Assembly: GCF_014202215.1 (NCBI RefSeq)
Contig: NZ_JACHGB010000001.1
Location: forward strand, 406,847 to 470,846
Direction: 5' to 3'
Source: Quisquiliibacterium transsilvanicum
GTDB taxonomy: Bacteria > Pseudomonadota > Gammaproteobacteria > Burkholderiales > Burkholderiaceae_E
DNA: 64,000 nucleotides
In this document: positions 54,540 through 63,410 of the stretch, piece after piece
Layout: each line of letters opens with the position of its first letter
How positions within the stretch are numbered: position 1 is the stretch's first letter
Position numbers and translations under genes: made by a program
The notes under the pieces: generated by a model
The model's input: only the letters and a program-made list of their open reading frames with translations
Told to the model about the DNA's origin: nothing
The model's database searches: none

Positions 54540-55640
54540 TCAGGCGCCGCGCGCCGCGATGCGCACCGGCATGCGCCGAGGCCCGAACCCGCCCGCCCCT
54601 GTGCCGAAACGACCGGCGAGCGCCGTGCCGCAGTGCACGCAGGCGCCCTGCTCGTCCAGGTCGTAGCGCAGTACCTTGTGCCAATCGCGCTCGATCAGCG
54701 CCGCGTGGCAAGCGGCGCAGAAGGTGGTGCCTCCTTCGCGGTCATGCACGTTTCCGGTGTAGACGTGCAGCAGCCCGTTCTCCTGCGCGATGCGGCGCGC
54801 CCGTGTCAGCGTCGTCGACGGCGTGGGCGGCACTCCGGTCATCTTGTAGTCCGGATGGAAGGCGGTGAAATGCAGCGGCACGTCGGTGCCGAGGTGGTCG
54901 GCGATCCAGCGCGTCATTGCGTCCAGTTCCGCGCTGTCGTCGTTCTGTCCGGGAATCAGCAGCGTCGTGAGCTCCAGCCAGCAGGTGGTCTCGTGCTTCA
55001 CATGCTGCAGGGTGTCGAGCACCGGCGCGAGGTGCGCGCCGGTCTGCCGGAAATAGAAGTCCTCGGTGAACGCCTTCAGGTCGATGTTGGCGGCGTCCAT
55101 CTTCGCGAAGAACGCGCGGCGCGGCTCGGCATGAATGTAGCCGGCCGTCACCGCCACCGTCATCACCCCGGCCTCGCGGCAGGCATCGGCGGTGTCCATC
55201 GCGTACTCGGCGAAGATCACCGGGTCGTTGTAGGTGAAGGCCACGCTGCGGCTGCCGGTCTCGCGCGCCGCCTCGGCGATGCGCGCCGGGCTCGCCCGGT
55301 CCATCAGCCGGTCCATCTCGCGGCTCTTGGAGATGTCCCAGTTCTGGCAGAACTTGCAGGCCAGGTTGCAGCCGGCGGTGCCGAAGGACAGCACCGCCGA
55401 GCCCGGGTGGAAGTGGTTCAGCGGCTTCTTCTCGATCGGATCGACGCAGAAGCCGGAGCTGCGGCCGTAGGTGGTCAGCACAATTGCGTCGCCCTGCCTG
55501 GCGCGCACGAAGCACAGTCCGCGCTGACCGTCGTGCAGCCGGCAGTCGCGCGGGCAGAGGTCGCACTGCAGGCGCCCGTCCTCCAGCGCGTGCCACCACT
55601 GCGCGGGGTGCGTGTCGAAGGCTTCGTCGCGCGCAGTCAT
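54540..55640 (-). CDS. amrS: AmmeMemoRadiSam-system radical SAM enzyme
   Basis: A 366-aa radical SAM protein. The cluster motif CNLACKFC is at residues 91-98 (Cys 91, 95, 98). An N-terminal cysteine set (Cys 26, 29, 33 and 43 in CDLCPRDC and GLC) and a C-terminal zinc-finger-like CAACH and CVHC likely bind further metal. It is the third component of the AmmeMemoRadiSam system, whose substrate is unknown. ATG 55640 is in an ATGA overlap with the upstream gene, placing the enzyme directly after the MEMO-AMMECR1 fusion. Confidence 0.94.
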   Translation of the reverse strand: MTARDEAFDTHPAQWWHALEDGRLQCDLCPRDCRLHDGQRGLCFVRARQGDAIVLTTYGRSSGFCVDPIEKKPLNHFHPGSAVLSFGTAGCNLACKFCQNWDISKSREMDRLMDRASPARIAEAARETGSRSVAFTYNDPVIFAEYAMDTADACREAGVMTVAVTAGYIHAEPRRAFFAKMDAANIDLKAFTEDFYFRQTGAHLAPVLDTLQHVKHETTCWLELTTLLIPGQNDDSAELDAMTRWIADHLGTDVPLHFTAFHPDYKMTGVPPTPSTTLTRARRIAQENGLLHVYTGNVHDREGGTTFCAACHAALIERDWHKVLRYDLDEQGACVHCGTALAGRFGTGAGGFGPRRMPVRIAARGA

Positions 55641-57193
55641 GCCGGCACCTCCGGCGCAGCGAACTTGCGCACCTCGTAGCGCTGGATCCTCACCTCTTCG
55701 TGCCAGAAGTCGCCGGGCACGCCTGCCTTGCGCCTGAGCGCGGCCAGGAACTCGCCCGGGTCCGGCAGCTGCTCCCACACCTGGGGCAGGAAGGTGGACC
55801 GGTGTCCCCGCCATTCGAAAATCACGCCGTCCCGGCACCGACGCAGCATCCGCATGGCCTCGGGTTCCGAACTCGCCCGCAGAGGCTCGAGCGGCCCGAG
55901 CAGCGAGACCTCGACCTCGATCTCCGGCCACTCGTGTACTTGCAGCGGCGGGAAGCGCGGGTCCTCGAAGGCCGCCCGGTGCGCGTTGCGGCGCACGTCC
56001 TGGTCCAGCGTATGGCCGGCGGCCTCCAGGCGCCCGATGCAGCCCCGCAGCTCGCCTCTGCGCAGCAGCGTGACGAAGGTGGCGCCCGGGCGCGCGAGCG
56101 CGGGGTGCGCTGGCTCGTCGATCGCGGGCATGCCGAGCAGTGACGCGATCGAATTGCGGGCGCGCGACAGCAGCGCCGCACCGAGCCGGTCATCGGCCGT
56201 CTCTCCCGGGATCTGGAACGAGCGCTGCGCGCCCACTGCGAGATCCGCCCTGGCGTCCTTCCGGACGTCCTCCCGTGCGTGCACGACCGTGACTTCGTCC
56301 GTCTCGCGGGTCGAGGCTGCGGACGAATTCGGCGCGGCATCGAACGCGATCGCGCAGTAGCCGACGACCCGGGAACGGTCGCCCGCCGTGTCGCCCGAGT
56401 TGCGCAGGTCGAGCAGCCGCGGCTGCAGCCCGTGCGCCTTCGCGACCCGCAGCGCGCCGTTCAGCGGCGTGGCGCCGCAGGCACCGTCGTGATCGATCGT
56501 CCGGTCGAAGGCCAGGATCCTTGCAACGGTGGCGGAATCCTGCGCGCGCGCATCGGCATAAGGCAGGTAGTGCGACAGGTCGGTGCTGATGATCACCAGG
56601 GTCTCGTCGCCACCCCAGAGGCGCTCGAGCACCTCGGCGACCTCGGCGGGCGAGGCCTGCCCAACCGCCAGCGGAACGAGCGCGAAGCGCCCCAGCACCG
56701 CCTGCAGGAAGGGCAGCTGCACCTCCAGCGAATGCTCCTGCGCGTGCGCGAGGTCGTTCGCGCGCACCTGCGGCAGGTCCGCGAGCGAATCGATGGCAGC
56801 GCGGTCCAGGGGAACAGCGCCCAGCGGTGTGTCGAAGGCTGCGACGGTGGGCGCCGCCAGCCCCCGCACCGCCACCCGATGGGTCGGGCCCAGCAGCACG
56901 ACCCGCTCGATCCGCCCGCGCAGGGCGCCGAGCAGCGCGTAGCCGCGTGCGGCCACCGGCCCCGAGTACATGTAGCCGGCATGCGGCACCACCAGCATCT
57001 TCGGACGAGCCTCGCCTGCGCCTGCGCCTGCGCCTGCGCCTGCGCCTGCGTGCGCCGCCGACGCGCCTGCGCTCGCGGCCTTGGCGCGTGCGCCTGCGGC
57101 CGACAGATAGCCCTCGAGCTCGCAGCGCAAGGCCTCCGGGTCGCCCGGGTAGAACATGCCCGCCACTGCGGCGGGGCGGTGATTCGATGGCAT
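55637..57193 (-). CDS. Fused MEMO1-like and AMMECR1-domain protein (AmmeMemoRadiSam A/B)
   Basis: A 518-aa fusion. The N-terminal MEMO domain (about 1-290) has VVPHAGYMYSGPVAARGYAL, HSLEVQLPFLQ and STDLSHYLP, the metal-ligand positions of MEMO/LigB-like proteins. An Ala-Gly repeat (six GCCTGC hexamers) interrupts its early part. The C-terminal AMMECR1 domain (about 340-518) includes FVTLLRRGELRGCIGRLE. These proteins usually occur as separate genes beside the radical SAM enzyme; fusion strengthens the functional link. ATG 57193 has GGAGGG upstream. An IS element lies 73 nt upstream. Confidence 0.93.
   Translation of the reverse strand: MPSNHRPAAVAGMFYPGDPEALRCELEGYLSAAGARAKAASAGASAAHAGAGAGAGAGAGEARPKMLVVPHAGYMYSGPVAARGYALLGALRGRIERVVLLGPTHRVAVRGLAAPTVAAFDTPLGAVPLDRAAIDSLADLPQVRANDLAHAQEHSLEVQLPFLQAVLGRFALVPLAVGQASPAEVAEVLERLWGGDETLVIISTDLSHYLPYADARAQDSATVARILAFDRTIDHDGACGATPLNGALRVAKAHGLQPRLLDLRNSGDTAGDRSRVVGYCAIAFDAAPNSSAASTRETDEVTVVHAREDVRKDARADLAVGAQRSFQIPGETADDRLGAALLSRARNSIASLLGMPAIDEPAHPALARPGATFVTLLRRGELRGCIGRLEAAGHTLDQDVRRNAHRAAFEDPRFPPLQVHEWPEIEVEVSLLGPLEPLRASSEPEAMRMLRRCRDGVIFEWRGHRSTFLPQVWEQLPDPGEFLAALRRKAGVPGDFWHEEVRIQRYEVRKFAAPEVPA
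57014..57049. repeat. (GCCTGC)x6 microsatellite inside the MEMO gene
   Basis: Six perfect tandem hexamers encode an Ala-Gly run in the fused MEMO-AMMECR1 protein. Like the GGGGGC array in the antitoxin gene, its length can vary without changing the frame. Confidence 0.95.
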
Positions 57194-57266: not shown

Positions 57267-58322
57267 TGTGAAGCTTCAATAGGTTGTTTCGGCAGTGAGG
57301 GTGGTCCATTCGGACCGGACTTGAGAAACTGGAAATCGCCAAACCCCCAGTTGCCTCAAGGAGCCCCAGCCGAATGAACCACCACAAGAATGCCCGACTG
57401 ACCTTTGTTCGTCGATTGGAGATGGTGCGCAACATGACCGAGAACGGGCTCGCGCCAGTCGATGCGGCCGCATCGGCTGGCGTGAGCGCGCCGACTGCAC
57501 GCAAGTGGCTGGGACGCTACCTGGCTGGCGGGGAAGCTGCGCTGGCCGATGCCAGCTCGCGCCCCGCGTGCAGCCCAAGACGCATCAGCGAATCGAAGGC
57601 GCTGGCCATTGTCGAGCTGCGCCGTCGCCGCCTAACCCAGGCGCGCATCGCCGCCAGCCTGGGCGTGTCCGAGGCCACGGTCAGCCGCGTGCTGCGCCGC
57701 GCAGGCCTGTCCCAACTGTCGCAGCTGCAACCGGCCGAGCCCGTGCAGCGCTACGAGCACGCCGCACCCGGGGATCTGCTGCACATCGACACCAAGAAGC
57801 TCGGACGCATCGAGCGCATGAGCCATCGCATCACGGGCAACCGTCGAGACTCCGTGGACGGCGCCGGCTGGGAATTCCTGTTCGTGGCCATCGACGACCA
57901 CGCGCGCATCGGCTTCACTCAGATGCGGCCCGACGAGCGCCAAGGCAACGCCGTGGCCTTCCTGCGCGATGCGGTGGCCTACTACGCCAGCTTGGGCGTG
58001 GCCATCAAGCGCCTGCTGACCGACAACGGTAGCGCTTTCCGCTCCAAGGCGTTCCGCCGGGCCTGTGTCGAGTTGGGCATCGGGCACCGCTTCACCCGCG
58101 CCTATCGGCCCCAGACCAACGGCAAGGCCGAGCGCTTCATCCAGAGCGCGTTGCGCGAGTGGGCCTACGGCATCGCCTACAACCACTCCAATGAGCGAAT
58201 CGCCATGCTGGCCAAGTGGCAGCACCACTACAACTGGCACCGCCCCCATGCCGGCATCGGCGGTAGACCACCCATGTCCAGACTCAACTCCGCGTCAGGA
58301 AAGAACGTCTTGACGCTTCACA
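57267..58322 (+). mobile_element. IS481-family insertion sequence, apparently intact
   Basis: A 1056-bp element bounded by imperfect inverted repeats: the left end begins TGTGAAGCTTCAA (57267-57279) and the right end reads TTGACGCTTCACA (58310-58322). It is flanked by the 6-bp duplication GCTAGC and holds one full-length transposase gene. Size, ends and target match IS481 as I recall it. It lies between the MEMO gene and the cupin gene and touches the cupin stop codon. The undamaged duplication and uninterrupted transposase suggest a recent insertion. Confidence 0.95.
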
Positions 58323-58327
58323 GCTAG
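57374..58327 (+). CDS. IS481-family transposase
   Basis: A 317-aa DDE transposase, complete. An N-terminal helix-turn-helix region (about 20-110: AAASAGVSAPTARKWLGRYL, then ARIAASLGVSEATVSRVL) precedes the integrase core, with catalytic Asp 139 (LLHIDTKKL), Asp 217 (LLTDNGSAF) and Glu 253 (NGKAERF). It closely resembles IS481 transposase, including the ending LLTVHS/VLTLHS. The last codon AGC straddles the element's right end, and the TAG stop (58325-58327) lies in the target duplication, so the element relies on CTAG targets for its stop. Confidence 0.96.
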   Translation: MNHHKNARLTFVRRLEMVRNMTENGLAPVDAAASAGVSAPTARKWLGRYLAGGEAALADASSRPACSPRRISESKALAIVELRRRRLTQARIAASLGVSEATVSRVLRRAGLSQLSQLQPAEPVQRYEHAAPGDLLHIDTKKLGRIERMSHRITGNRRDSVDGAGWEFLFVAIDDHARIGFTQMRPDERQGNAVAFLRDAVAYYASLGVAIKRLLTDNGSAFRSKAFRRACVELGIGHRFTRAYRPQTNGKAERFIQSALREWAYGIAYNHSNERIAMLAKWQHHYNWHRPHAGIGGRPPMSRLNSASGKNVLTLHS

Positions 58328-58328
58328 C
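58323..58328. repeat. Right target-site duplication GCTAGC of the IS element
   Basis: The second copy of the 6-bp duplication (first copy 57261-57266). On the plus strand it provides the transposase TAG; on the minus strand it provides the cupin gene's TAG. Confidence 0.9.
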
Positions 58329-58785
58329 CCAGCTGCGCGGGCTTCTCGCAGGGCACGGTGCCCATCTCGCCGGGCAGCGTCACCTCGAGCAGCTCGAACT
58401 CCTCCGAGGTTGCGATCTCGTTGTGCTTCATTCCGCCCGGGATCAGCAGCGACTCCCCTGCCTGCAGCCGGACCCTGCGGCCGTCCTCGAACTCCAGGTC
58501 GACCCAGCCCTTCAGTCCGTAGACGAACTGCGCTTCGCAGACGTGGTAGTGCCAGCCGGTGGGCTGCGACATGCCGCGGCTGGCCGACATCACCTGCGCG
58601 CGCAGCCGCCCGCCGGTGGCCTGGGCGACCAGCAGGTCGCGATACCGGAAGAACTCGCGCCGGCCCGCAACCTCCGGCGCCGTCTGCGGGGTGGCGTGGG
58701 CCAGGACGCAGTCGGCGCCTGCCGGTCTGGAGGAATCCGTCGTGCGGGGTGAGTCCCCCCTGCTGCGGGTTTCGTTGCTGTCCAT
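58324..58785 (-). CDS. Cupin-domain protein
   Basis: A 153-aa protein. The C-terminal two thirds are a small cupin barrel with GWHYHVCEAQFVYGL (metal-ligand His) and GESLLIPGGMKHNEI (second motif). The N-terminal about 35 residues are polar and probably disordered. Cupins of this size bind a metal and a small ligand or act as dioxygenase/isomerase modules; no substrate is evident. ATG 58785 follows AGGAGG. The stop codon TAG (58324-58326) lies in the IS target duplication, so the insertion kept the gene intact. Confidence 0.85.
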   Translation of the reverse strand: MDSNETRSRGDSPRTTDSSRPAGADCVLAHATPQTAPEVAGRREFFRYRDLLVAQATGGRLRAQVMSASRGMSQPTGWHYHVCEAQFVYGLKGWVDLEFEDGRRVRLQAGESLLIPGGMKHNEIATSEEFELLEVTLPGEMGTVPCEKPAQLG

Positions 58786-58889
58786 GGGAAACCTCCTGCC
58801 GGATCGAGTCTCGCGGATGGTGCGCTCCACTCTACTCCCGCTCGCCGGGGCTTGTCCGGCGGCTGCGCCCGGCGGTACCCTGCTCCGAC

Positions 58890-59219
58890 ATGATCAAGTT
58901 CAAATGCCTCGTCAACGGGACAATCGCCGCGTCGATGCGCGAGCAGGTGGCCCTCGGCCTCGCCCGAATCTGCCGCGAGCGTTTCGGGCTGGCGCCCGGC
59001 GACCTGCAGGTGGAGTTCACCGAGGTTGAGGCGGGCATGTGGTTCACGGCCGGCAAGCCTTCGGACGCCTCGATGGTGCTGGGCAGCGTGCCCGCGGGAA
59101 CGCCGCAGCCCGTGCGCGTCGCGTTCATGGACGCGGTGGCCCGGATGTTCAGCGAAGTCACCGGCGCACGCTACGAGCACGTGATGGTGGTTGCCGCCGA
59201 CGCCCGCCCGTCCGCCTGA
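58890..59219 (+). CDS. Tautomerase-like protein (no N-terminal Pro)
   Basis: A 109-aa protein of MIF/CHMI-like size, starting MIKFKCLVNGTIAASMREQ. The segments LGLARICRERFGLAPGDLQV and GMWFTAGKPSDASMVLGSVP suggest a beta-alpha-beta fold with tautomerase-like topology. The catalytic Pro-1 of the superfamily is absent (Ile at that position), so it may be a noncatalytic partner or have other chemistry. The neighbouring cis-CaaD-like gene starts 35 nt downstream on the same strand; the two may form a hetero-oligomer (inference). Family assignment is tentative. Confidence 0.55.
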   Translation: MIKFKCLVNGTIAASMREQVALGLARICRERFGLAPGDLQVEFTEVEAGMWFTAGKPSDASMVLGSVPAGTPQPVRVAFMDAVARMFSEVTGARYEHVMVVAADARPSA

Positions 59220-59254
59220 AGCGTCGGGTTCCACCGTCTTCCAGGAGAATCGCG

Positions 59255-59644
59255 ATGCCGCTCTATCGCTGCACCTACCCCGAGGGCGCGCTGGACCCGT
59301 CACAGCGTGCGGCACTGGCGGTGGCCTTCACCGACATACACTGCGAGCTGACCGGCGCACCGCGCACCTTCGTCCACGTCCAGTTCCATCCGCGGCCGGT
59401 GCCCGCGGACGGCCCGCCCTACCAGCTGCACGCCGGGATCCGGGCCGGGCGCGACCGGACGCTGGCCGACGAACTGGTCTCGCGCTGCATCGCTGCGGTG
59501 TCCGCCACCACCGGCGCAGCCCCGTCCGCGGTCACGATGCGCACCTCCAGCACGCCCGCCTCGTGGATCCTCGAAGGCGGGCGCGTGCTCCCCGAACCCG
59601 GCGAAGAGGACGACTGGGTGGCCGGAGCAGGTGACCCGACCTGA
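59255..59644 (+). CDS. cis-3-chloroacrylic acid dehalogenase-like tautomerase
   Basis: A 129-aa tautomerase-superfamily protein. After Met removal the N-terminus is Pro-1 (PLYRCTYPEG). Aligned by eye to cis-CaaD, it keeps Pro-1, His-28 (TDIHCELTG), the Arg pair (IRAGR, matching Arg-70 and Arg-73), and a late Glu in PASWILEGGR matching Glu-114; the Tyr-103 position is Arg. These residues support hydration or dehalogenation chemistry in cis-CaaD, so related 3-halo- or enoic-acid activity is possible, with Tyr-103 lost. ATG 59255 is preceded by CAGGAG. Residue equivalences are from memory. Confidence 0.78.
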   Translation: MPLYRCTYPEGALDPSQRAALAVAFTDIHCELTGAPRTFVHVQFHPRPVPADGPPYQLHAGIRAGRDRTLADELVSRCIAAVSATTGAAPSAVTMRTSSTPASWILEGGRVLPEPGEEDDWVAGAGDPT

Positions 59645-59725
59645 GCCTTGAGCCTTGGGCCTTGGGCCGTCAGCCCTGGCGCCTCGGCCCTGAGTCGTCG
59701 GCCCTGGGCCGCGGCTCGCAGAATG
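59642..59725. repeat. Degenerate GGCCCTGG-type repeat block upstream of the YbjQ gene
   Basis: Imperfect copies of GCCTTGGGCC/GCCCTGGGCC-like units fill the region between the tautomerase stop and the YbjQ gene. It appears noncoding; no function seen. Confidence 0.5.
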
Positions 59726-59770
59726 ACCAGCCGCAGGCGAGCCTTCCTGCGGCGCAACCGGAGAGCACGA

Positions 59771-60124
59771 ATGGGCTGGTTTTCCAGATCGGGCGACGAC
59801 TTCTTCCTTGCGACGATCGTGCCGGCCGGCGAAGGCGCGCGCGTCGAGCGCTACCTGGGCCTCGTCAACGGCGAGGCGATCATCGGCGCGAACATCTTCC
59901 GCGACATGTTCTCCTCGATCCGCGACGTGGTCGGCGGTCGGGCCGGCGGCTACGAGCGCGCGCTGTCCGGCGCGCGGGACGCCGCGATCGACGACATGAA
60001 GGTGGCCGCGAAGGCGCTGGGCGCCGATGGCATCGTCGGCATCGATTTCGACTACGAGGTGCTCGGCGAGAACAACGGGATGATGATGGTCACGGTGAGC
60101 GGGACGGCAGTGAAGATGGCCTGA
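59771..60124 (+). CDS. YbjQ/UPF0145-family protein
   Basis: A 117-aa protein. VERYLGLVNGEAIIGANIFRD and a Gly-rich turn (GGRAGGYERALSGARDAA) lead into DDMKVAAKALGADGIVGIDFDYE, all typical of the YbjQ (heavy-metal-binding-like) family, whose members form pentameric rings of uncertain role. ATG 59771 begins MGWFSRSGDD; the earlier open frame is repeat-derived. A strong hairpin follows its stop by about 60 nt. Confidence 0.9.
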   Translation: MGWFSRSGDDFFLATIVPAGEGARVERYLGLVNGEAIIGANIFRDMFSSIRDVVGGRAGGYERALSGARDAAIDDMKVAAKALGADGIVGIDFDYEVLGENNGMMMVTVSGTAVKMA

Positions 60125-60182
60125 TCCGCGTTCGGGCCCGGTTCAGTCAGACCGGAGCTGCGCCTGGAGGAGGCCGAAAGAA

Positions 60183-60218
60183 GGCCGATCTCCCCGGATG
60201 GTTCCGGGGAGATCGGCC
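60183..60218. terminator. Perfect 15-bp hairpin between convergent genes
   Basis: GGCCGATCTCCCCGG (60183-60197) and its exact complement (60204-60218) form a 15-bp stem with a 6-nt loop ATGGTT, positioned between the YbjQ gene (plus) and the selenoprotein gene (minus). It is followed by few T residues on either strand but is a likely bidirectional terminator. Confidence 0.75.
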
Positions 60219-60234
60219 CGTGCAGCATGGGTCT

Positions 60235-60756
60235 TCAGGCCTTCTTCACCAGGAGCGCGAGGATCGCCTCCAGGTGGTCGTCGGCCATTTTCCTCATCTC
60301 GTCGTCGGTGCGGTCCTGCACCGGATGCGGTACGAAGACGTAGGCCGGGTCGGTGCCGAGCGCCTTCGACTGCACGGCGGCAGCGTCGACGAACTCTGTG
60401 GTGGCGACGCCCACCGAAGGAATGCCATTCGACTCGAGATCCGCGAGGTCATGCGTACAGCACGACGTGCAGGAACCTCAGTCCGCCAGCCCTTCGATGA
60501 CCACGTCGACTTCGCCCACGATCTGCTGCCGCAGGGGCAGCGGCGCGGGTTTGGCGACGGTCGGCTTCATGTAGCGCTTCACCACGATTCCGCGGTCGCT
60601 CAGCAGCGATTCCAGGCGGTCGAGGAATACGTCCCCGCGGGGCTTGGAGATGTCCAGCAGCCCCACGGTGAGCCCCTCGAGCCGGTCCGGCCGCGCCAAT
60701 CGCTCGCGCGATGCCGCGCTGCTCTCGGCGGTTGGATCCATTACGACGGTGGTCAC
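60235..60756 (-). CDS. UGSC-family selenoprotein (in-frame UGA = selenocysteine 93)
   Basis: A 173-aa selenoprotein. From GTG 60756 (an ideal AAGGAGGTGA sits 4 nt upstream; GTGA overlaps the preceding stop) the frame runs to a UGA at 60478-60480, then continues with no stop for 80 further codons to TGA at 60235. The UGA is followed by Gly-Ser-Cys-Thr-Ser-Cys-Cys, so residue 93 is the Sec of the UGSC motif (Cys 96, 99 and 100 nearby). Flanks match the family: LTVGLLDISKPRGDVFLDRL before, and PSVGVATTEF and VFVPHP after. Sec incorporation is inferred; the alternative is a truncated 92-aa product. Confidence 0.9.
60445..60480 (-). promoter_or_regulatory. Candidate SECIS-like hairpin at the UGA codon
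   Basis: Starting at the UGA, GAGGT (60479-60475) can pair with ACCTC (60449-60445) at the base of a hairpin. Inside it, either a UGC/GCA inner helix or a GCAC/GTGC mini-hairpin with a GTC loop can form. Bacterial SECIS elements lie immediately 3' of the UGA with a small G-containing loop, and this fits that layout, though the loop is somewhat closer to the UGA than the usual range. No structure was computed. Confidence 0.5.
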
Positions 60757-62204
60757 GATTTCACCTCCTTGGTGACGGGAATGGAGCCGGCGAAGCCGCC
60801 GCCGGTCCACCCGCCGATGATGCCGGAGAACATCCCGGCGCCGCCGCCCGCGCGGACGATGAGCAGTCCGCCCGGACGGAACTTGTTGCGTGTCTTGCCG
60901 AGCACCGATTCGGGCAGGCCCTCGTCGATGCCCTTCGCGCCCCTGACCAGGTCCTCGCCAGGCACTTCGCACAGCCGGTGCAGCTCCTCGAGCAGGCGCG
61001 CCTTGCTCCAGCCCGCCTCGCGGAAGGTGCGCTCATGCTCGGGGCAGACCACCAGCATCGCATCGCAGGCCGGCGCCAGCTTGACGCTGTGCAGGGCCTT
61101 CAGCGATTCGGCGAAGTTGCGCGCCAGGCTCTCGGGCGTGCGCGACTTCTGGTCGACGACGCCCTGCAGCCCGTAGCCGGCGAACACGGTGACCGCCGAG
61201 ACGCCGCGCGACACGCCGAAGTCGGTGGACAGCGGCTCCCAGGACGAGCCCTCCTCGTCCTCCGCGAAGCAGTAGGTGTACTTGCCTGGATTGCCGAGCG
61301 TCGCGCGATCCACTTCCTGCGGACGGCCGCCGCCGACGTTGCGCACGATCAGCTGCAGCGCGCGGCCGATGGTGGCATTGGCCCGATTGCCCTGGCCGAG
61401 CGCGTTGCCGCGCGAATTCATCGAGAGCTGCCGGCGGATCGGGCCATTGACCACCAGCACCGGCCCGACGAACATCGTGGTGGCGAGCACGCCGTGCAGC
61501 GAGAAGGCGGGGTCGAGCGCCGCCTCGACGGCCGCCAGCACCACGGGCAGGTACTCGGGCTTGCAGCCGGCCATCACCGCATTGATGGCGACCTTCTCGA
61601 CGGTGAGCTCGACGAGGTTGGGCGGGCACAGGCCCAGCACCTCCGCCGGATCCCGGCTGGTGCCCGACAGCATGCGCATCACGCGCCTCTCGGTGGGAAT
61701 GACCACCGGCAGTCCATCGGTCCAGCCGCGCTCGTAGATCGCCTCGATTTCGTCCTCGTCGTCGCCGAAGGCGATCCGGCGCGCATTGAGCCCGGTCTCG
61801 CCGAAGCGGATCCGCAGGTCCTCGAGCGTGCCCGGCTCCAGGTTCAGCGCGCCGCAGCCGGGCCGCATCGCCGGCAGATCCGCGCCGATGCCGGTCACGC
61901 CGCTGACCCGCTCCCACTCGGCCCGGTCCCAGCCGTAGGTGCGCTCCACCTCCTCCCCGCCGGCGCGGCGGATCAGGGTGGGCACGATCTCGATGCCGAG
62001 ACGGTGCGAGACGCTCAGGGCGGTGTCGTCGATGCGCATCCGGACCGCCTCGGGAAACGCAGGGTCGTCCTGAGTGTAGACCGTGAGGCCGCCGCGCGCC
62101 TCGAGCGCGGCCAGCGCCGGCGCGGCCAGCACGCAGGTGGGGCAGTCGCGCTTGACCACCGCGATCAGGCCGTCGGCCGGCAAGCTCACTTCTGGTGCGG
62201 ACAT
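60753..62204 (-). CDS. Thioredoxin-like domain fused to a novel domain; partner of the UGSC selenoprotein
   Basis: A 483-aa cytoplasmic protein. Residues 1-85 form a thioredoxin-like domain with the redox motif CPTC (21-24) and the cis-Pro in EIVPTLIRR (about 75). The remaining about 390 residues form a domain I do not recognise, with LTVEKVAINAVMAGC, FVGPVLVVNGPIRRQL and a Gly-rich stretch (GMFSGIIGGWTGGGFAG) near the end. It contains additional Cys (GLCPPN, VVCPEH). It is translationally coupled to the selenoprotein gene, so it probably delivers electrons to, or is a subunit with, the Sec centre. ATG 62204 has GGGGAG upstream. Confidence 0.85.
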   Translation of the reverse strand: MSAPEVSLPADGLIAVVKRDCPTCVLAAPALAALEARGGLTVYTQDDPAFPEAVRMRIDDTALSVSHRLGIEIVPTLIRRAGGEEVERTYGWDRAEWERVSGVTGIGADLPAMRPGCGALNLEPGTLEDLRIRFGETGLNARRIAFGDDEDEIEAIYERGWTDGLPVVIPTERRVMRMLSGTSRDPAEVLGLCPPNLVELTVEKVAINAVMAGCKPEYLPVVLAAVEAALDPAFSLHGVLATTMFVGPVLVVNGPIRRQLSMNSRGNALGQGNRANATIGRALQLIVRNVGGGRPQEVDRATLGNPGKYTYCFAEDEEGSSWEPLSTDFGVSRGVSAVTVFAGYGLQGVVDQKSRTPESLARNFAESLKALHSVKLAPACDAMLVVCPEHERTFREAGWSKARLLEELHRLCEVPGEDLVRGAKGIDEGLPESVLGKTRNKFRPGGLLIVRAGGGAGMFSGIIGGWTGGGFAGSIPVTKEVKS

Positions 62205-62459: not shown

Positions 62460-63410
62460 ATGAGCGCTGGCACCCGCCTTCCCGGCACCCCGACTCCGAT
62501 GCACAGCTGGCCCGGCGCCGGCGGAGTCCGCATCGCAGGCGATTCCTGGGGAGATCCCGGCGGCCCGCTCGTGCTGCTGCAGCATGGCGGTGGCCAGACC
62601 CGCCACGCCTGGAAAGGGGCCGGCGAGGCGCTGGGCGCCGTCGGCTATCACGCGGTGGCCTTCGATGCCCGTGGCCATGGCGATTCCGACTGGGCGCCGG
62701 ACGGCCGCTACGGCCAGGACGTGATGGTGGAGGACCTGGAGTGCGTGGTGGCGGCGCTGGGCGGGCGCCGCCCGGTGCTGGTCGGCGCCTCGATGGGCGG
62801 CGGCACCAGCCTGGTGGCCGTCGGCGAGGAGCGCGTCGATGCCGCTGCGCTCGTGCTGGTCGACATCGGCCCGCACATCGAGACCGAAGGCGTCGAGAAG
62901 ATCCACGCGTTCATGGACCGCAATCCGGACGGCTTTGCCTCGCTCGACGAAGTGGCCGACGCGATCGCCAGCTACCAGCCGCACCGCAAGCGTCCCAGTT
63001 CGCTCGACGGGCTGGGCAAGAACGTCCGCATGGGCCCGGACGGCCGCTACCGCTGGCACTGGGATCCGCGCTTTCGCGCGGGCAGCCAGGTGCTGGAGCA
63101 GCGCCAGGAGCGGCTGGTTGCCTGCTCGCGCAGGCTGCGTCTGCCCACCCTGCTGGTGCGCGGCGGCCTGTCCGACCTGCTCAGCGAGGAAGGTGCGCGC
63201 GCCTTCCTGGAACTCTGCCCGCACAGCGAGTACGTCAACGTGACCGGGGCCGGCCACATGGTCGCCGGCGACCGCAACGACGTCTTCGCAGGCGCGGTGA
63301 TCGATTTCCTGCAGCGCACGGTGCCGGTCGGCGGCGCGCCGGTGTACCCGTCCCCTCCGCTGCACCCCCACCACGAAGGCCCTCCGGGCGACGTCACTGA
63401 CGTGCCCTGA
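62460..63410 (+). CDS. Alpha/beta hydrolase
   Basis: A 316-aa hydrolase with LLQHGGGQTRHAW (oxyanion side), the Ser nucleophile in LVGASMGGGTSL, Asp in RGGLSDLLS, and His in GAGHMVAGDRND. The C-terminal tail is Pro-rich. It resembles peroxidase/esterase-like alpha/beta hydrolases; the substrate is unknown. It is divergent from the selenoprotein operon (256-nt gap) and followed by a GST gene on the same strand, suggesting a detoxification context. Confidence 0.92.
   Translation: MSAGTRLPGTPTPMHSWPGAGGVRIAGDSWGDPGGPLVLLQHGGGQTRHAWKGAGEALGAVGYHAVAFDARGHGDSDWAPDGRYGQDVMVEDLECVVAALGGRRPVLVGASMGGGTSLVAVGEERVDAAALVLVDIGPHIETEGVEKIHAFMDRNPDGFASLDEVADAIASYQPHRKRPSSLDGLGKNVRMGPDGRYRWHWDPRFRAGSQVLEQRQERLVACSRRLRLPTLLVRGGLSDLLSEEGARAFLELCPHSEYVNVTGAGHMVAGDRNDVFAGAVIDFLQRTVPVGGAPVYPSPPLHPHHEGPPGDVTDVP

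Follow-up and report, generated by a model that had tools for sequence, protein, structure and literature searches.

A stretch of 64,000 nucleotides from the Quisquiliibacterium transsilvanicum genome (hereafter the window) carries, at 60235..60756 on the minus strand, a gene of the UGSC family whose in-frame UGA is almost certainly decoded as selenocysteine (Sec) by machinery encoded elsewhere in the genome, as indicated by several indirect lines of evidence. Together with the gene directly upstream, here called its partner, the 173-residue product probably forms a two-protein unit. We favour, with modest confidence, a reading of this pair as a thioredoxin-driven selenoenzyme resembling PrdB and GrdB, a judgement that covers the whole chain of argument down to that point and leaves the substrate aside.

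The reading frame opens at GTG 60756-60754, runs for 92 codons to TGA 60480-60478 and continues through 80 sense codons to a final TGA ending at 60235. Directly 3′ of the internal TGA, GGT TCC TGC (Gly-Ser-Cys) and then Thr-Ser-Cys complete the motif Sec93-Gly-Ser-Cys96-Thr-Ser-Cys99; on recheck, the coordinates, codon count and UGSC motif of the original prediction proved exact. That prediction had also argued that a real stop would not leave 80 conserved codons behind it. The conservation of coding sequence stands, whereas the open length itself is no evidence in this G+C-rich window, because 74 of 168 window reading frames (at least 90 codons, TGA-ended) are likewise followed by at least 80 sense codons. 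Family-like sequence does lie on both sides of the UGA, as had been claimed: the 92 residues before it and the 80 residues after it each match PF24696 separately (E = 5.3e-15 and 1.4e-19, respectively), both over the gathering score of 25, with the whole protein reaching 148.4 bits. NF041046 ('UGSC family (seleno)protein') matches residues 28–169 with 152 bits against a curated cut-off of 125. The G+C content by codon position is similar before (0.74/0.43/0.88) and after (0.66/0.44/0.85) the UGA and, relative to seven near relatives compared by codon, all with TGA at the site, the post-UGA differences comprise 22–35 synonymous and 5–11 non-synonymous changes. Judged by these comparisons, and beyond chance expectation, coding sequence continues past the UGA; the gene is a further member of an already described family (NF041046, PF24696). 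The UGSC family was described earlier in the Global Ocean Sampling (GOS) marine selenoproteome (PMC2398784; this and the other papers cited are drawn on in excerpt), with Sec in a UGSC motif and cysteine (Cys) homologues, both shared by the window protein; that account, as excerpted, assigns it no function. In a review from 2026 it figures with the families of largely uncharacterised function (PMC13188914).

Homologues and Sec machinery both support the assignment of the UGA at 60478..60480 (minus strand) to Sec. We aligned 115 copies, taken from a scan of genome contigs (best 80 of 439 kept), from relatives in the order, family and genus and from the window (some loci are represented by two entries); the column is TGA in 113 of 114 copies and Cys in one, a further fragment not reaching it. 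Eight plasmid records contain a relative, and the six examined show TGA once (Acidovorax) and Cys five times (two Natrinema, Embleya, Arthrobacter and Variovorax). The homologous frames therefore continue past residue 93 with UGA or Cys there, the pattern that the original prediction had proposed to look for. Cys forms occur in haloarchaea and actinomycetes; the form in Natrinema fits, since haloarchaea are not known to use Sec.

The host genome (4.26 Mb, 99.3% complete) encodes all four components of the expected machinery—selA (570 bits), selB (357), selD (436) and tRNA-Sec (83.6)—over curated cut-offs. Neither outcome that the original prediction had named as refuting it, absent Sec machinery or homologues with an ordinary stop and unrelated sequence behind it, was observed. 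The tRNA-Sec gene, also called as such by ARAGORN, lies about 270 bases from selA, with selB and selD elsewhere. A second, marginal match to the tRNA-Sec model scores 49.2 bits; as this model also matches to some degree in 14 of 14 control genomes (over cut-off in five), we rely on the first alone. A survey of 61 genomes that span the genus, the family and the order, the host's own included, found UGSC in 13 (38 copies, 37 with one TGA and one without); selA exceeds its cut-off in 13 of 13 genomes with UGSC versus 12 of 48 without (Fisher p = 8e-7, kinship ignored). In Marinobacter, Halopseudomonas and others, the genes for partner, UGSC, selA, selB and tRNA-Sec are consecutive, and the Sec system may therefore travel together with the enzyme there.

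Downstream of the UGA, a candidate bacterial selenocysteine insertion sequence (SECIS) hairpin (60448..60466, minus strand) folds with a 7-bp stem and the loop UGUAC, 18 nt separating UGA and loop. Counting the UGA as positions 1–3, bases 15–21 pair with 27–33 around the five-base loop. Among 79 distinct 48-base stretches, pair 21–27 is canonical in 79 (CG 67, GC 9, UA 3) and pair 15–33 in 71 (GC 55, AU 15, GU 1), both sites of each pair being third codon positions. Along a tree of the partner protein (109 rows), site 15 changes eight times and site 33 seven times, with agreement in 96 of 97 rows. Some observations count against giving this part of the evidence, or the selA association, full weight. 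Supported branches hold four independent pairs (three agree, none opposes, one is unchanged), too few for a covariation test, and the sole Cys-type genome of the order (G038) has selA too. The coding sequence explains part of the hairpin, because its stability is modest (z −1.2 to −2.0) and a similar hairpin folds in the Cys-type haloarchaeal homologue L188. An Rfam search gave no match for a SECIS hairpin. We take the hairpin, with its compensatory changes, as supporting and not decisive.

A true stop, yielding a 92-residue product or marking a decaying pseudogene, would agree with the standard meaning of UGA and with the many long open stretches after TGA in the window; set against the PF24696 matches of both halves, the mostly synonymous differences after the UGA, the retention of the codon or its exchange for Cys among homologues and the complete machinery, it is very improbable. 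Readthrough that inserts Trp, Cys or some further amino acid, through a deviant code or a near-cognate tRNA, has nothing specific in its favour and a negligible chance given the tRNA-Sec, selA and selB genes, the constant company of selA and the presence at the site of Cys, the residue that Sec replaces, in five relatives on plasmids and one from the order.

The original prediction held that gene callers would miss or truncate this gene. Truncation is real, the Acidovorax plasmid homologue being ended at its TGA in RefSeq as a 96-residue 'hypothetical protein'; with the family described, however, the gene is hidden mainly from simple callers. This homologue (L187) is a Sec-type UGSC on plasmid p2-T1 of Acidovorax sp. 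T1, an IncP plasmid typed as conjugative, and lies downstream of two transposase genes. Its partner core follows UGSC in the same frame, without an entry in the (incomplete) gene table.

The partner gene (60753..62204, minus strand; up to 483 residues) has a stop that overlaps the UGSC start, and its product joins an N-terminal thioredoxin-like domain to a core of about 340 residues belonging to no named family. The N-terminus shares fold and CxxC motif with thioredoxin, matching thioredoxin families only weakly by sequence; it differs in its fusion to the unnamed core and in its motif, CPTC where thioredoxins usually have CGPC. Most UGSC copies adjoin, or are fused to, this one conserved partner, which is called hypothetical or left unlisted in the plasmid records examined. 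A fusion of UGSC with an 'Unknown_1' domain had already been reported (PMC2398784, in the excerpt). Fusions and gene order together point to a two-protein unit in which the thioredoxin domain of the partner probably supplies electrons.

The distribution of thioredoxin reductases bears on this supply. A tblastn search of the fetched stretches, with one Arthrobacter TrxB and TrxA as queries (E 1e-6), found no thioredoxin-reductase-like gene at any of 83 loci with a domain-bearing partner, but one at 7 of 33 loci with a partner that lacks the thioredoxin domain (p = 9e-5, kinship ignored; three of the 33 partners, at L067, L085 and L155, are cut by a contig end and could originally have carried it, and the seven include none of these three). 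All seven TrxB-like genes encode a CAxC motif. TrxA matched only in Arthrobacter itself, where the order is trxB, trxA, partner, UGSC; in Variovorax, trxB lies upstream of the partner with two genes in between.

Profile comparison relates the Sec domain of UGSC to that of the D-proline and glycine reductases PrdB and GrdB. Matches at E ≤ 1 among 44 UGSC members fall to GrdB (41), GrdF (40), TIGR01918 (29), GrdH (20) and PrdB (3), the best at E = 1.3e-6. For a set of 31 diverse UGSC sequences compared with nine PrdB/GrdB-like proteins, hhalign returned a probability of 95.1% (E = 2.9e-8, 88 columns), aligning Sec93 with the Sec/Cys of PrdB and Cys96 with the Cys that comes after it there; a first run, limited to four sequences, had been weaker (42%, E = 2.6e-4). 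Across the 31 rows, window included, only P8, Sec/Cys93, G94 and C96 are invariant, C99 not being so. The excerpted review describes GrdB with a UxxCxxC motif (PMC13188914), which the window protein has in common. As in PrdB and in GrdB/F/H of glycine/sarcosine/betaine reductase, Sec/Cys is followed by Cys three residues on; unlike them, UGSC is a single short domain with a Cys form in haloarchaea, and the window protein scores below the family cut-offs (GrdF 17.8 versus 800 bits, TIGR01918 15 versus 65.45, GrdH 10.9 versus 775). The NCBIfam scan of the window protein gave no TIGR04483 row.

Outside the window, the host genome holds a second gene with an in-frame UGA (L166, G000:C6:318333-318746), whose PrdB-like product has the motif U-P-V-C-H. 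This product scores 78.9 bits against TIGR04483, below the cut-off of 300, and no clear hairpin appears in its folded stretch.

The predicted UGSC fold (predicted local distance difference test, pLDDT, 91.5) is a five-fold alternation of strand and helix in which Sec93 follows strand three and precedes helix three. The thioredoxin fold usually shows another order of strands and helices. In the excerpted 2008 account UGSC was called likely thioredoxin (Trx)-like and redox (PMC2398784); here a strand–helix repeat is predicted for UGSC, and the thioredoxin domain lies on the partner instead.

Combining these elements, we propose that the thioredoxin domain of the upstream partner would supply electrons to UGSC, where Sec93, placed before the helix that follows the third strand of a PrdB/GrdB-related α/β domain, would act as the attacking nucleophile. 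Cys96 would resolve the intermediate as an Se–S bond, which thioredoxin would then reduce. We give this sequence of attack, resolution and reduction an even chance of being right. More tentatively, and with rather less than even confidence, the partner core might position the substrate, for which a small carboxylic acid, or a derivative of one, is the likeliest candidate; the net reaction would be the reductive breaking of a bond adjacent to a carboxylate or carbonyl.

Gene context fits, but does not prove, catabolism of small organic acids by a substrate-specific enzyme. Two order relatives, G041 and G047, carry 19 and six UGSC copies. Families were tallied for 120 of the 170 filter-passing neighbour proteins from these genomes: TctC receptors for carboxylate uptake (28), methyltransferases (5), enoyl-coenzyme A (CoA) hydratases (4) and MmgE/PrpD, dehydrogenase and GST families (3 each). 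Because TctC genes are very common in both genomes (at least 149 each), control stretches of G041 taken at round-number positions were compared; 24 TctC genes fall in the 19 UGSC stretches versus 9 in 20 others (p = 0.004). CoA transferase homologues also occur near the plasmid UGSC relatives. Possible substrate hints come from loci L187, L188 and L189: in Acidovorax and Natrinema, UGSC has isocitrate lyase/phosphoenolpyruvate (PEP) mutase homologues nearby, and in Natrinema and Arthrobacter phosphosulfolactate synthase homologues. A further likeness, by description, is to the fluoroacetate reductase FarB/FarE, a GrdB-like selenoprotein for which the excerpted source proposes attack on the C–F bond of a small carboxylate (PMC10838667); that system differs in being of GrdB/GrdE type and from anaerobes.

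Several results weigh against a thioredoxin-driven, PrdB/GrdB-like enzyme. The window protein reaches just 18.6 bits against the GrdB model TIGR01917 (cut-off 602.2), and the partner core has only chance-level matches in Pfam and NCBIfam scans. Those scans of partner and core show no row for a pyruvoyl partner of GrdE/PrdA type, no direct comparison with GrdE or PrdA having been made. At least one UGSC copy (L128) lacks a partner despite 4 kb of sequence upstream of it, and 26 of the 33 loci with a domain-less partner show no thioredoxin-reductase-like gene in the stretch. Two TrxB-like neighbours scanned score 251 and 198 bits against an NCBIfam thioredoxin-reductase cut-off of 343, although this is still their best match. 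Finally, the TctC profile was built partly from UGSC neighbours themselves.

Two other functions have to be considered. UGSC could reduce peroxides or disulphides, as a peroxidase or as a thiol-disulphide oxidoreductase of general type, with the thioredoxin domain of the partner recycling Sec afterwards and the core being accessory. UxxC with thioredoxin coupling is common to many antioxidant selenoproteins, and the thioredoxin domain, the trxB neighbours and the label given in 2008 all sit well with such a role. We consider it unlikely, given a predicted five-fold strand–helix repeat unlike the usual thioredoxin order, a profile relation that leads to PrdB/GrdB, and 19 copies in one genome with enriched uptake receptors, which suit substrate-specific enzymes better. 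Somewhat less probable still is a thioredoxin-linked lyase, isomerase or dehalogenase, in which Sec would attack without net reduction of carbon (by elimination or exchange, for example) and thioredoxin would only repair oxidised Sec. Loci with isocitrate lyase/PEP mutase, CoA transferase, enoyl-CoA hydratase or phosphosulfolactate synthase homologues favour it, as does the proposed attack of a GrdB relative on fluoroacetate (PMC10838667, in the excerpt); a dedicated thioredoxin domain or adjoining trxB-like gene suggests stoichiometric use of electrons instead.

Directly after the second stop of the UGSC gene, a 17-bp hairpin (60182..60219, minus strand; −37.7 kcal/mol, z −6.75) may mark the transcript end of the whole read-through gene; a terminator pattern scan did not list it. 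Between the UGSC gene and an IS481-family transposase about 2 kb away (57374-58327, plus strand, 314 bits) lie cupin, tautomerase-like and YbjQ-type genes (58324-60124) with no sign of belonging to the UGSC unit. Beyond the transposase, a radical SAM gene adjoins a Memo-AMMECR1 fusion (54540-57166, minus strand). An α/β hydrolase gene (62460-63410, plus strand) diverges from the partner gene, and a similar one occurs near UGSC in three other loci, two apparently on the same contig.

Returning to the thioredoxin-driven, PrdB/GrdB-like reading, its broadest form is that UGSC and partner might constitute a separate branch of glycine-reductase-like chemistry, thioredoxin-driven and substrate-diversified, reductively cleaving bonds in small organic acids that are imported by way of TctC-type receptors. 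This branch, which we advance as a possibility on the doubtful side of even, would extend from bacteria, with Sec and Cys forms, to haloarchaea, with Cys forms; it would number as many as 19 copies in one genome and, in some lineages, be packaged with selA, selB and tRNA-Sec. Within our limited coverage of the literature, the description of the thioredoxin-domain partner, its complementarity with thioredoxin reductase, the relation to PrdB/GrdB seen by profile and the association with TctC are new, and an unnamed protein family, the partner, is now pointed out. A near-constant partner with a thioredoxin domain, the PrdB/GrdB link and paralogue-rich genomes with suggestive neighbours together give the UGSC family a concrete, testable reaction type.
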